Shown piece by piece: positions 30,971-38,437 of a stretch of DNA of 64,000 nucleotides (position 1 is the first letter of the stretch; each line of letters opens with the position of its first letter). The position numbers were made by a program, and so were the translations under genes. The DNA lies in the NCBI RefSeq assembly GCF_009833495.1, contig NZ_WUWG01000006.1:1-64000 (forward strand), read 5' to 3'. The stretch comes from Oceanomicrobium pacificus (GTDB lineage: Bacteria > Pseudomonadota > Alphaproteobacteria > Rhodobacterales > Rhodobacteraceae). Under the pieces are notes generated by a model that did not search any database, was not told the origin of the DNA, and saw only the letters and a list, made by a program, of their open reading frames with translations.

Positions 30971-32317
30971 ATGGCATCGGCAGCCGAACAGATGGCGGCG
31001 AACCTCAACTGGGGATCGTTTGGCAAAGCCAAGGAACTGCAGCAGCGCATTCTTTTCGCGCTCGGACTGCTGATCGTTTACCGGATCGGCACCTATATCC
31101 CGGTTCCGGGCATCGACGCGGCGCAGCTGCGCGAGTTCTTCGAACAGGCCAATGCCGGTATCGGCGGAATGCTCAACATGTTCACCGGTGGTGCGGTCGG
31201 CCGGATGGCCATCTTCGCACTCGGGATCATGCCCTATATCTCGGCCTCGATCATCGTCCAGCTGCTGGCGGCCATGGTGCCGCAGCTCGAGCAGCTGAAA
31301 AAGGAAGGTGAGCAGGGCCGCAAGAAGATCAACCAGTATACGCGCTACGGCACCGTGGTGCTGGCGACCTTCCAGGCCTATGCGATCGCCGCCGGTCTGG
31401 AGAGCCAGGGCCTGGCCGCCGATCCGGGCTGGTATTTCCGTGCTTCCTGCGTGATCACGTTGGTCGGCGGCACCATGTTCCTGATGTGGCTGGGTGAGCA
31501 GATCACCGCGCGCGGCATCGGCAACGGCATCTCGCTCATCATCTTCGTGGGCATCGTGGCCGAACTTCCCGCGAGCCTTGCCCAGTTCTTCAGCCAGGGC
31601 CGGTCGGGCGCGCTGAGCCCCGCCATCATCATCGGTGTGATGGTCATGGTCGTGGCCGTGGTCGCCTTCGTGGTCTTCATGGAACGCGCGCTGCGCAAGA
31701 TCCACATCCAGTATCCGCGCCGTCAGGTCGGGATGAAAATGTATGGCGGTGAAAGCTCGCACCTTCCGGTGAAGCTGAACCCGGCCGGCGTGATCCCGGC
31801 GATCTTCGCCTCCTCGATCCTGCTGCTGCCGACGACCGTCAGCACATTTGCGGGCACCGACGGATCGGGCGTCTTCAACACGATCGCCGCCTATATGGGC
31901 CGTGGCCAGCCGCTCTTCCTGATCTTCTTCGCCTCGATGATTGTCTTCTTCACCTATTTCTACACGGCCAACGTGGCCTTCAAGTCGGAAGATGTGGCGG
32001 ACAATCTGAAGAAGCAGGGCGGTTTCGTGCCCGGCATCCGGCCCGGCGCGCGCACTGCGGACTATCTCGACTATGTGGTGACGCGGCTGCTGGTGCTCGG
32101 CTCCGGTTACCTTGCGGCGGTTTGTCTCCTGCCCGAGATTCTTATTTCGCAGTTCGCCATTCCCTTCTACTTTGGCGGCACCTCGCTGCTGATCGTCGTG
32201 TCCGTGACCATGGACACGATCACTCAGGTCCAGTCTCACATGCTGGCACACCAGTATGAGAGCCTGATCGAGCGGTCGAACCTGCGGGGCCGCAAGAAAG
32301 GGAAGAACCGTCGATGA
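30971..32317 (+). CDS. secY: Preprotein translocase subunit SecY
   Basis: SecY is the protein-conducting channel of the Sec system. The 448-residue protein has about ten membrane segments. The N-terminal [17 protein letters not shown] and the later [19 protein letters not shown] loop are family landmarks, and the cytoplasmic loop between segments 8 and 9 contains [12 protein letters not shown]. Its stop overlaps the adk ATG by four bases. Confidence 0.98.
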
Positions 32318-32985
32318 ATATCATTCTGCTTGGACCGCCCGGCGCCGGCAAAGGCACGCAAGCCAAAATTCTGGTCGATGCCTATGGGGTCGTGCAGCTC
32401 TCGACGGGGGACATGCTCCGCGCGGCGCGCACCTCCGGTACCGAGATGGGCAAGCAGGTGGCCGCCGTGATGGACCGTGGCGACCTCGTCACCGACGAGA
32501 TCGTCATCGGCCTGATCGCCGAGCAGCTTGACGCCGGTGCGGCCGACAAGGGTGTCATCTTCGACGGGTTCCCGCGCACGCTGGCGCAGGCCGACGCGCT
32601 CGACCAGCTTCTGCGCTCGCGCGGCACCGGTCTCCACGCGGTCATCGAGATGAAGGTCGACGATGCAGCGCTGGTGCGCCGGATCACCGGACGTTTCACC
32701 TGCGCCAACTGCGGCGCCGTCTATCACGATGAGACGAAGCCGACAGCGAAAGCTGGCGTCTGTGACGCGTGCGGCCATACCGAGTTCACCCGCCGCGCGG
32801 ACGACAATGAAGAGGCGCTGCGCACCCGGCTGATGAACTACTATCGAGATACCGCGCCGCTCATCGGCTATTACTATGCCAAGAAGCAGCTGCGCAGCAT
32901 CGACGGGCTGGGTGAGATCGACGAGGTGAAGGCCCGGATTTCCGACATCGTGCAGGGTCTGGCGCAGGAACCAGTTGACGCTTGA
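32314..32985 (+). CDS. adk: Adenylate kinase (zinc-type lid)
   Basis: The enzyme interconverts ATP + AMP and 2 ADP. The 223 residues begin [18 protein letters not shown] (P-loop), followed by the [17 protein letters not shown]-site motif. The long LID carries two Cys pairs (CANC and CDAC), which predicts a structural zinc. It is co-translated with secY, as in many bacteria. Confidence 0.98.
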
Positions 32986-33009
32986 CGCCCGGTCGAATCG
33001 GCCTATATT
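32982..33009 (+). promoter_or_regulatory. Sigma-70 promoter for the alpha operon
   Basis: TTGACG and TATATT are 16 bases apart; the -35 overlaps the adk stop codon. It would start an mRNA with a leader of about 160 bases upstream of rpsM, separating the alpha operon from spc. Confidence 0.7.
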
Positions 33010-33095
33010 TGCGCCTTCTCGTGAAAATGAGAATCGTTCCCTCCCATGTCATCAGTGACGCGCGGAAGGTTGGGCCAACGAAACATGGTCCAGAG

Positions 33096-33120
33096 GCCCA
33101 CCGGCAGGACGGCGGTGGGC
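33096..33120 (+). other. Leader hairpin upstream of rpsM
   Basis: GCCCACCG pairs with CGGTGGGC around GCAGGACGG, followed by TTTAG. It lies within the predicted leader of rpsM and may be an attenuator. Confidence 0.45.
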
Positions 33121-33176
33121 TTTAGTTGTGAAAAAAGGTTCTGGGGCTACGGAACCGCAATTGAACGGAGAGAAAT

Positions 33177-33545
33177 GTGGCGCGCATTGCTGGCGTAAAC
33201 ATTCCCACGGGAAAACCGGTGCATATCGCACTGACCTACATCCACGGCATCGGCCGGAAATCCGCAAAAGACATTTGTGACGCGATCGGCATCGACGATG
33301 CCCGCCGCGTGAACGAACTGTCGGATTCCGAAGTTCTGCAGATCCGTGAGCATATCGACGGCAATCTGACCGTCGAAGGCGACCTGCGTCGCGAAACGCA
33401 GATGAACATCAAGCGTCTGATGGACCTCGGCTGCTACCGCGGCCTGCGTCATCGTCGCGGCCTCCCGGTGCGTGGTCAGCGGACCCACACCAACGCGCGG
33501 ACCCGCAAGGGCCCGGCCAAGCCGATCGCCGGCAAGAAGAAGTAA
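33177..33545 (+). CDS. rpsM: 30S ribosomal protein S13
   Basis: S13 forms bridges to the 50S subunit. The 122-residue protein begins at a GTG ([20 protein letters not shown]) with GGAG six bases upstream. An ATG two bases before it is out of frame. The signature [20 protein letters not shown] and the basic tail are present. Confidence 0.97.
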
Positions 33546-35744: not shown

Positions 35745-37103
35745 ATGGCGGACCTGTTTGATTCCCTTCCGTCCGGCGGCGCGCCGGCACCGGATCCAGA
35801 GCCCGGTTCTGGTGGCGGCCACCGGCCGCTTGCCGACCGGCTGCGGCCCGCGCGCCTCGATGACGTGATCGGGCAGGACCATATTCTGGGCCCCGATGCG
35901 CCGCTTGGCCGGATGCTGGATGCGGGCACGCTTTCGTCGCTGATCCTCTGGGGGCCGCCGGGGGTGGGCAAGACCACCATCGCACGGCTGCTCGCGGATG
36001 CGACGGACCTCCATTTCGTTCAGATCTCGGCAATCTTCAGCGGGGTGGCGGATCTGCGCAAGGTCTTCGACGCCGCCCGCCAGCGCCGCCGCGCGGGGCA
36101 GGGGACGCTCCTGTTCGTCGACGAGATCCACCGGTTCAACAAGGCGCAGCAGGATGGGTTCCTGCCGCTGATGGAGGACGGGACGATCCTGCTCGTCGGC
36201 GCGACGACGGAAAACCCGTCGTTTGAGTTGAACAAGGCGCTTCTGTCGCGCGCGCAGGTGTTGATTCTGAACCGGCTGGAGCGGGCTGATCTGGAACGGC
36301 TGATGAGCCGGGCCGAGGTCGAGGCCGACCGGCGCCTTCCGCTAGATCCAGCCGCCCGCGACCGGCTCGTCGACATGGCCGATGGTGACGGGCGGGCGCT
36401 TCTGAACCTCGTGGAACTGTGCTTGTCGTGGGACGATGAAACACCGGTCACGCCGGAGGCCCTGTCGGTCCGGCTGAACCGCCGCGCCGCCGCCTATGAC
36501 AAGACCGGCGATGCGCATTACAACCTGATCTCCGCCCTGCACAAATCGGTGCGCGGCTCGGACCCTGATGCCGCGCTCTACTGGTTCGCGCGCATGCTCG
36601 AAGGCGGGGAGGAGCCCCGCTATCTGGCGCGCCGCATCACCCGCATGGCGGTGGAGGATATCGGGCTGGCCGATCCGCAGGCGCAGCGGCTCTGCCTCGA
36701 CGCGTGGGAGACCTATGAGCGGCTCGGCAGCCCCGAGGGGGAACTGGCACTGGCGCAGGCGCTCGTCTATCTCGCACTCGCGCCAAAGTCGAATGCGACC
36801 TATGTGGCCTACAAGGCGGCGCGCAAGAAAGCGCGGGACAGTGGATCAAGTTCTCCGCCCGCACATATTCTGAATGCACCGACAAGCCTGATGAAAGAAC
36901 AGGGGTTCGGCGCCGGCTATTCTTACGATCATGATGCAGAGGACGGTTTTTCCGGCCAGAACTACTTCCCGGACGGTATGCCGCGGCCGAATTTCTATCT
37001 GCCGGTTGATCGCGGGCATGAGCGGGAAATGCGCAAGCGTCTGGAATATTTCGCGAAACTGCGGGAGCGACGCCAAGCCACCGGTTCAACCGACTCGAGT
37101 TGA
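35745..37103 (+). CDS. rarA: Replication-associated recombination protein A
   Basis: RarA (MgsA) is an AAA+ ATPase, related to clamp loaders and RuvB, that acts at stalled replication forks. The 452 residues show Walker A GPPGVGKTT at about 70-78, Walker B FVDEIHRF at about 123-130, sensor 1 GATTENPSF, and the C-terminal tetramerization part with GEEPRYLARRITRMAVEDIG. It is slightly longer than usual because of a Gly/Pro-rich N-terminus. It stands alone after the rplQ terminator. Confidence 0.95.
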   Translation: MADLFDSLPSGGAPAPDPEPGSGGGHRPLADRLRPARLDDVIGQDHILGPDAPLGRMLDAGTLSSLILWGPPGVGKTTIARLLADATDLHFVQISAIFSGVADLRKVFDAARQRRRAGQGTLLFVDEIHRFNKAQQDGFLPLMEDGTILLVGATTENPSFELNKALLSRAQVLILNRLERADLERLMSRAEVEADRRLPLDPAARDRLVDMADGDGRALLNLVELCLSWDDETPVTPEALSVRLNRRAAAYDKTGDAHYNLISALHKSVRGSDPDAALYWFARMLEGGEEPRYLARRITRMAVEDIGLADPQAQRLCLDAWETYERLGSPEGELALAQALVYLALAPKSNATYVAYKAARKKARDSGSSSPPAHILNAPTSLMKEQGFGAGYSYDHDAEDGFSGQNYFPDGMPRPNFYLPVDRGHEREMRKRLEYFAKLRERRQATGSTDSS

Positions 37104-37165
37104 CTGTTACGCGTATCGCGGCCTAAGATGCAACCTGTGGGGGTGCAGAAAGGAAGCGGTCGGTC

Positions 37166-37549
37166 TTGCCGGATTCGTTGACGCATCTTGTATTCAGGGG
37201 GATTGCCAATGTCAGCCCCAACCCATCCGAGCGCGCGCGGTTCATTGATGCCACCCGGGAGCGGTGGCTCAAACGGCATGTCACCGGGTTGATCACACTT
37301 CAGGGGCGAACCGTCACCGCCATGGTCGAAGGGGCCGAAGACCGCCTGTTCGACGGGATGGAATGCCTCACGCGGAGCCGATCGATCCGCCGCATCAGGA
37401 TCATGTCCGAAACCCATCCGCCCAAGGCCCGCTATGCGTCGCTCTTTGTCACCGATCTGGGGATGCGGTCCGACAACCCGCTCCACAGTTATCTGACCCA
37501 AGGCCACCTTGAAAAACTGACGCGGTCGGAGGTGCTCTCTCCGACCTGA
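37166..37549 (+). CDS. Degenerate BLUF-domain-like protein, first of pair
   Basis: The 127-residue protein follows the BLUF fold pattern: strand LTHLVFRG, helix, HVTGLITLQGRTVTAMVEG, helix, strand, then RYASLFVTDLG. BLUF proteins normally bind FAD and sense blue light, but here the essential residues appear lost: Phe10 replaces Tyr, Ala52 replaces Gln, no Asn precedes the TG, and no Trp is in the last strand. A TTG start is used, with AGGA upstream at weak spacing, so the N-terminus is uncertain. It may be a non-photoactive regulator. The family call is by pattern only. Confidence 0.5.
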   Translation: MPDSLTHLVFRGIANVSPNPSERARFIDATRERWLKRHVTGLITLQGRTVTAMVEGAEDRLFDGMECLTRSRSIRRIRIMSETHPPKARYASLFVTDLGMRSDNPLHSYLTQGHLEKLTRSEVLSPT

Positions 37550-37584
37550 CTGTTCCGAGTTCCGTTCCACCGAAAGCCCACACA

Positions 37585-37974
37585 ATGCCCAATGTCGCGC
37601 CTTTGAATTCGCCTTTGCTTGCCTTCGAATATCGCAGCCGTCTTGTCGAGGTGCCGACGCGGCGGGATATGATGCGCCTGATGAAGCAGGTCCGGAAATG
37701 GACGCTGGATACTGGCGTGGTTGTGAACGTCAATATCGACGGGTGTGACATCCATGAACATATCGAGGGGCCGGAGGATGCGGTGCTGGCCACGGTCGCG
37801 CGCCTGATCTGTGATCCGCGCCACGCTTCGTTCCATATCCTGCGCTGCGAGCGGATCTCGCACTACAGCCTGACCAGCTGGTCCTTCCGCTTCGACAGTT
37901 GCGTCACCGAGATTCCGCTCGACCTTGATGACGGCCGGACCGGTTTCGGGACGGTGGTGCCGCTTCGCCGCTAG
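37585..37974 (+). CDS. Degenerate BLUF-domain-like protein, second of pair
   Basis: The 129-residue protein aligns better with BLUF: Tyr16-Arg-Ser in LLAFEYRSR, DTGVVVNV, DIHEHIEGPEDAVLATVARL, DPRH, and SWSFRF. Tyr16 and the Trp are kept, but the flavin-contacting Gln is replaced by Glu58 and the usual Asn is absent. It lies 35 bases after the first BLUF-like gene, in the same orientation, so they are probably co-transcribed. Whether it binds flavin is unknown. Confidence 0.55.
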   Translation: MPNVAPLNSPLLAFEYRSRLVEVPTRRDMMRLMKQVRKWTLDTGVVVNVNIDGCDIHEHIEGPEDAVLATVARLICDPRHASFHILRCERISHYSLTSWSFRFDSCVTEIPLDLDDGRTGFGTVVPLRR

Positions 37975-38053: not shown

Positions 38054-38437
38054 ATGCCCATTCTTTTGCAGGTCGCGCTCGGTGGGGCGGTCGGGGCCGC
38101 GCTGCGCTATCTGAGCGTTGCTTTCATGGTCCGGCGCCTCGGCACGGATTTTCCGCACGGGACGCTGTTCGTCAACGTGGTGGGCTCGCTCGCCATGGGG
38201 ATCGTGGCGGGCATCGTTGCCTCGCGCCTCGAGCTTGGGTCGGACCGCTGGGCCGCCTTCCTGATGCCGGGCCTTCTCGGCGGGTTCACGACCTTCTCCG
38301 CATTCTCGCTCGACACGGTGCTGCTTCTGGAAAAGGGCCGTTTCCTGCATGCCGGCGGCTATATGATCGGGTCGGTCATCCTGTCGGTCGGTGCGCTTTT
38401 TGCGGGGCTGATGATGGTCCGGGCGGTGACGCCATGA
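38054..38437 (+). CDS. crcB: Fluoride exporter CrcB/Fluc
   Basis: CrcB forms dual-topology dimers that export fluoride through the inner membrane. The 127 residues show four hydrophobic segments, GGAVGAALRYL near the N-terminus, GTLFVNVVGSLAMGI (family Asn) and GFTTFSAFSLDT (Phe/Thr motif). The ATG has AGGAA eight bases upstream. No fluoride-riboswitch consensus was seen in the 79 bases before it. Its stop overlaps the next gene by ATGA. Confidence 0.93.
   Translation: MPILLQVALGGAVGAALRYLSVAFMVRRLGTDFPHGTLFVNVVGSLAMGIVAGIVASRLELGSDRWAAFLMPGLLGGFTTFSAFSLDTVLLLEKGRFLHAGGYMIGSVILSVGALFAGLMMVRAVTP

Follow-up and report, generated by a model that had tools for sequence, protein, structure and literature searches.

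What are two adjacent small genes that resemble blue-light receptors of the BLUF family but lack residues of BLUF photochemistry? The question is raised by two open reading frames, P1 and P2, in a 64,000-base stretch of Oceanomicrobium pacificus DNA (the window, which spans bases 1-64000 of contig 6; the genome measures 3.26 Mb, is 99.4% complete and comprises 10 contigs). A preliminary description had singled them out as neighbouring frames with a BLUF pattern, and both were confirmed at the coordinates listed in Table 1. On the plus strand, the order is rpoA, rplQ, rarA, P1, P2, crcB, a pseudouridine-synthase-like gene and a HAD-like gene, as we take the named genes to be.

Table 1. Features of the rarA-crcB region, in window coordinates.
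Feature	Coordinates	Strand	Description
rarA-like ATPase gene	35745..37103	+	left border of the slot (name presumed)
Weak promoter-like TTGACT-18-TAAGAT before P1	37100..37129	+	9/12 positions; consensus match only
AAGGAAG, ribosome-binding-site-like	37150..37156	+	9 bases before the P1 TTG start; read from the sequence
P1	37166..37549	+	127 aa, TTG start; strongly diverged BLUF homologue (moderate support)
P2	37585..37974	+	129 aa, ATG start; diverged BLUF homologue
crcB-like gene	38054..38437	+	right border of the slot (name presumed)

The genes are closely spaced. P1 begins 62 bases after rarA, the P2 ATG follows the P1 stop after 35 bases and is preceded by no clear ribosome-binding site, and 79 bases separate P2 from crcB. 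Between 36900 and 38200 we found two promoter-like sites (0.2 expected) and no terminator-like site (1.0 expected in shuffles). The short gaps to rarA and crcB and the absence of a terminator-like site are consistent with a single transcript without proving it.

BLUF fold and descent are well supported for P2. The Pfam BLUF profile (PF04940) matched it with 34 bits (E 3.2e-8), above the cut-off of 25 bits, and hhalign against a profile of 12 BLUF sequences returned E 6e-14 and a probability of 98%. Among sequences of solved structures, P2 matched BlrB (2byc) at E 1.1e-4 and Tll0078 at E 0.0024; AppA and Slr1694 reached just E about 1, ranking below a phage protein (0.097). The AlphaFold model of P2, from an alignment of 4 sequences, had a pLDDT of 75.7 and a pTM of 0.69, and the 50 matches that Foldseek listed for it in the PDB were all BLUF or BLUF-containing proteins (E down to 6e-8), the adenylyl cyclases among them presumably carrying BLUF domains. 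At 20 conserved columns P2 keeps 9 residues, including S18, D77, R79 and H80. In a set of 295 family genomes drawn evenly from a larger group, P2 had matches in 20, its own genome among them; the other matches share 24-44% identity with P2, and the two highest-identity matches span 56 residues only.

For P1, BLUF fold and descent are moderately supported. The profile search bore out the preliminary description for P2 but stopped short for P1, which scored 17.4 bits (E 0.0048), under the cut-off. BLUF is the sole Pfam family listed for P1 at E <= 10, and the match covers 81 of the 92 profile positions. With hhalign, residues 2-62 of P1 aligned to the 12-sequence profile at E 8e-4 and a probability of 24%, against E 0.45 and 0.1% for the rplQ protein used as control. 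An HMM of 51 further BLUFs from the family gave P1 13.6 bits, a score reached by 1 of 10,000 shuffles of P1 (7,674 scored), and gave reversed P1 and P2 -1.8 and -1.4. When the 537 window ORFs of at least 60 aa were compared with this HMM, P2 came first (40.1 bits), P1 second (14.3) and the next ORF reached 4.5. Structure prediction likewise agreed with the proposed BLUF fold for P2, and for P1 too, but weakly: the P1 model, from 3 sequences, had a pLDDT of 61.1 (below 50 from residue 86 onward) and a pTM of 0.53. Foldseek again listed 50 matches in the PDB for it, all BLUF or BLUF-containing, with E down to 8e-6. The alignments behind both models included BLUF proteins, which favours a BLUF fold, and that of P1 was picked among several tries; its fold result is therefore not independent. 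P1 keeps 4 of the 20 conserved columns, the D-R-H motif being gone, and a search of the 295 genomes at E <= 0.001 found it in one, its own.

We read the photochemistry residues of both proteins from an alignment with the 51 other family BLUFs. In that set Asn and Gln are each conserved in 51/51, Tyr in 50, Trp in 49 and Met in 47, partly by construction because the sequences were collected by similarity to a BLUF. The photoactive tyrosine is present in P2 (Y16) and replaced by F10 in P1. The switch glutamine is absent from both (A52 in P1, E58 in P2), as is the Asn that contacts the flavin in BLUF domains (W34 in P1, T40 in P2). The Trp/Met pair of the last strand is incomplete in P2, which has W99 and F101; P1 has neither residue, with L93 and L98 in these columns, although its register is uncertain at the Trp column and W34 is its only Trp. 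The alignment upholds the preliminary description, in which P1 lacked Tyr, Asn, Gln and Trp and P2 kept Tyr16 and Trp with Glu for Gln. Loss of the photochemistry set is in fact backed more strongly than stated there, because P2 lacks the Asn as well.

Since the Gln on which the hydrogen-bond switch depends and the Asn are gone from both proteins, and Tyr and Trp also from P1, neither P1 nor P2 would still run the canonical BLUF photocycle. This fits PMC4844311, which ties the BLUF spectral switch to the conserved Tyr-Gln couple. According to PMC6695109, Q50A in Slr1694 and Q63E in AppA lead to pseudo-light-excited states; the Q63E paper is also cited in the reference list of PMC4780082. PMC6695109 also reports that the BlsA proteins Y7A, Q51A and W92A were mostly insoluble on overexpression, so that the price of losing such residues can be a misfolded protein instead of a locked one, and their loss should not come easily.

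The position of the pair, between rarA and crcB, supports the photoreceptor origin that had been proposed for it, since in three of the other genera sampled this slot holds a BLUF with the full set of key residues. Our slot survey covered 164 loci, with rarA and crcB both present in 99 (94 genomes once repeats of the window genome, G193 and G008 were set aside); 11 crcB-bearing loci had no rarA in reach. Matches to crcB were found in 282/295 genomes, and to rarA in 44 of the 50 genomes searched (52-77% identity). The two genes are usually adjacent, with a median gap of 48 bases over the 99 loci. A gap of more than 500 bp occurs in 13 genomes, 5 with a BLUF ORF in it and 8 without, so that a long gap fails as a marker of BLUF genes. 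The five carriers belong to five genera: the window genome, G193, G008, G015 and G275. Coordinates were also compared by eye in the 105 BLUF genomes, using crcB for 55 and rarA for the other 50, and this comparison, with six genomes outside it, revealed no additional slot BLUF.

The slot BLUFs of G193, G008 and G015 score 82.7, 85.3 and 88.6 bits against Pfam, with Tyr, Asn, Gln, Trp and Met all present. Locus L166 (G193, recorded as uncultured Neomegalonema sp.) has the gene order of the window with one BLUF gene replacing P1 and P2, and locus L167 (G008, recorded as Rhodobacteraceae bacterium) has the order rarA, BLUF, crcB, pseudouridine-synthase-like gene. The slot BLUF of G275 is degenerate (33 bits), with Tyr replaced by Phe and Trp by Ala, and with Asn and Gln kept. 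In a 93-row tree of rarA and crcB, the nearest relative of the window genome is G071, where rarA adjoins crcB with no BLUF between them; flanking gene order is as in the window on both sides, and G071 differs by some 2 kb extra between rplQ and rarA. The five slot-BLUF genomes do not group together in this tree. Chance would hardly explain a slot shared by five genera, since BLUFs elsewhere sit on many contigs and in many places, and common descent with many losses would be the simplest reading of these gene orders. On our reading the ancestors of P1 and P2 would have been photoreceptors for blue light, the likeliest source being the short BLUF gene that several other genera of the family have in this slot.

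The eight loci with a gap of more than 500 bases and no BLUF ORF are L037, L109, L114, L128, L146, L153, L163 and L164. The gap of L037 contains an open frame of 177 aa, with several cysteines close to its beginning. Genes other than BLUFs seem able to occupy the slot.

How are these genes connected with phototrophy? No photosynthetic reaction-centre match was found in the window genome, at 99.4% completeness, or in G275, and such matches are present in the intact-slot genomes G193, G008 and G015, a correlation of slot and reaction centre that rests on five genomes. The three nearest relatives of the window in the rarA-crcB tree (G071, G062 and G263) have reaction-centre matches as well. Among the 295 genomes, a reaction-centre match is present in 121, a BLUF match (E <= 0.05) in 105 and both in 60. 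Reaction centres occur in 60/105 BLUF genomes versus 61/190 others (Fisher p 4e-5, uncorrected for kinship). The remaining 45 of the 105 gave no reaction-centre match, and a BLUF can therefore occur without one. Where the best BLUF match is below 40 bits, 4/4 genomes are without a reaction centre, versus 41/101 others (one-sided p 0.03, without kinship correction and with a 40-bit threshold picked after the scores were seen). Separately, contigs C67 and C99 of G193 contain four reaction-centre matches, apparently two pufLM-like pairs, which may reflect a binning error.

An origin of P1 and P2 from one gene by tandem duplication was neither shown nor rejected by the sequence comparisons. A clade of P1 and P2 was not rejected (p-AU 0.78), and neither was one of P1, P2 and the G275 BLUF (0.73), with both proteins on long branches. 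The BLUF tree, in which both have very long branches, does not place them; P2 fell among BLUFs outside the slot. At E <= 0.05 the window genome has no BLUF match besides P1 and P2, and the genus search covered this one genome. Among 64 stretches of genome_contigs that fitted the search pattern none was a close relative of P2, and plasmids yielded no relative of P1 or P2. In NCBIfam neither P1 nor P2 nor the slot BLUF of L166 matched a family at E <= 1, and two scans of viral_contigs for further BLUF sequences with which the alignments could be deepened returned nothing.

Both frames have a coding-like base pattern, with a G+C content at third versus second codon positions of 0.76 vs 0.49 in P1 and 0.77 vs 0.43 in P2. 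In simulations we let an intact BLUF drift neutrally until 25% identity was left, with 2,000 runs per setting. The frame stayed open in 1.7-13% of runs, and stayed open with P1-like codon periodicity in <=0.1%, in a simulation that ignores indels, assumes one intact BLUF ancestor and is a weaker substitute for dN/dS. This result argues that most of the divergence of P1 and P2 arose while the genes were translated and constrained, with recent relaxation possible; since no close relative of either was found, there is room for recent decay.

Several explanations of the pair must be weighed against these results. We lean towards the view that P1 and P2 are a BLUF-derived pair without a canonical photocycle, retained after the loss of phototrophy and probably acting as light-independent interaction modules. 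Both genes might instead be decaying, functionless remnants of photoreceptors that have not yet acquired a stop codon after phototrophy was lost. The loss of otherwise invariant residues from both proteins, the confinement of P1 matches to its own genome and the missing reaction-centre match all agree with decay, as does G244 (L088), which has just a 24.4-bit BLUF match, in frame with downstream enzyme-like sequence. Two adjoining intact frames with coding-like base patterns speak against it, however, together with the rarity of such an outcome under simulated drift and the coherent BLUF core of P2, and we regard decay as possible but unlikely. That P1 is an unrelated orphan with a similar order of strands and helices, P2 alone being BLUF-derived, seems to us very unlikely. 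It would explain why P1 falls below the Pfam cut-off, has a low-confidence model, aligns unstably with other BLUFs in MAFFT, shows no meaningful similarity to P2 in pairwise BLAST and matches among PDB sequences a single, non-BLUF chain (E 1.6). It would leave to coincidence that Pfam lists only BLUF for P1 over most of the profile, that shuffling so seldom reaches its score, that BLUF structures rank first in Foldseek and that P1 is located in a BLUF slot beside P2.

Two further readings keep the flavin at the centre. P2, still a flavoprotein, could respond to light or redox non-canonically through Tyr16, Trp99 and Glu58, with P1 as accessory subunit. P2 does model as a BLUF domain and retains Tyr16, Ser18, Asp77-Arg79-His80 and Trp99, but the Asn and Gln it has replaced are both invariant in the comparison BLUFs, and PMC4844311 ties the spectral switch to the Tyr-Gln couple; we consider such a sensor very unlikely. 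Alternatively, with the loss of photosynthesis the blue-light receptor could have become a permanently lit BLUF pair, with Glu (P2) and Ala (P1) at the switch position and the two subunits working together, a constitutive, light-independent regulator and a natural counterpart of locked BLUF mutants made in the laboratory. This constitutive lit state is an attractive reading whose basis is the residue match, and we judge it, including the role as counterpart of the locked mutants, unlikely. The change of Asn to Thr in P2 may abolish flavin binding, and if it does, the pseudo-lit reading is void.

Under the favoured explanation, of a retained pair without a canonical photocycle, light sensing was probably lost after the photosynthetic apparatus, and P1 and P2 were kept as intact coding genes, probably as protein-interaction modules with a constitutive function. 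P2 would perhaps still bind flavin, held lit-like by Glu58; P1 is probably without flavin and possibly the partner of P2. The light-independent sensor suggested by the preliminary description is a reasonable inference; the heterodimeric regulator also suggested there would join two proteins between which pairwise BLAST finds no meaningful similarity.

Short BLUF proteins are among the systems nearest to the pair. BlrB of Rhodobacter (2byc) and the cyanobacterial PixD proteins (Tll0078, Slr1694) share its size, fold and single-domain make-up, their structures being matched by the P2 model, and differ in having the Asn and Gln missing from P2 and the Tyr, Asn, Gln and Trp missing from P1. The column mutated in the pseudo-lit proteins Slr1694 Q50A and AppA Q63E holds the same residues in nature, Ala in P1 and Glu in P2; those mutants are single changes in otherwise intact domains, whereas many more conserved positions are altered in P1 and P2. 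The slot BLUFs of L166 (G193), L167 (G008) and L086 (G015) occupy the same rarA-crcB position as P1 and P2, but are single, high-scoring genes with the key residues, in genomes with a reaction centre. That of G275 (L085) resembles P1 and P2 in its slot, its degeneration and its genome without a reaction-centre match, and differs in being a single gene with Asn and Gln retained. No natural BLUF pair without these residues was found in the titles and abstract openings that our literature search covered, most subscription journals lying outside it.

Light-blind photoreceptors are experiments of nature that can show what a domain needs for signalling once photochemistry is set aside. Provided that P2 still binds flavin, Glu58 would be the natural equivalent of the laboratory change that locks a BLUF domain. 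The rarA-crcB slot allows intact and degenerate BLUF genes to be compared at one chromosomal position; this comparison ties BLUF degeneration to the absence of a reaction centre and is testable in more genomes.

Other BLUF genes of the family deserve mention. In G257, where no reaction-centre match was found, an intact ORF (L087, 1129-1620) with a weak BLUF match of 28.7 bits has none of Tyr, Asn, Gln and Trp at the key columns; light-blind BLUFs may recur. In L088 (G244) the frame at 120-1274 joins its BLUF match to downstream sequence that we take to be thioredoxin-reductase-like, and is possibly a remnant. A second recurrent BLUF site was seen in G078, G069, G053, G228, G133 and G217 (L171, L172, L173, L174, L175 and L176), where an opposite-strand BLUF gene falls between the counterparts of window ORFs 32260-32982 and 33165-33542, presumably adk-like and rpsM-like. 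In the window, the interval at this second site (32983-33164) measures <200 bases.
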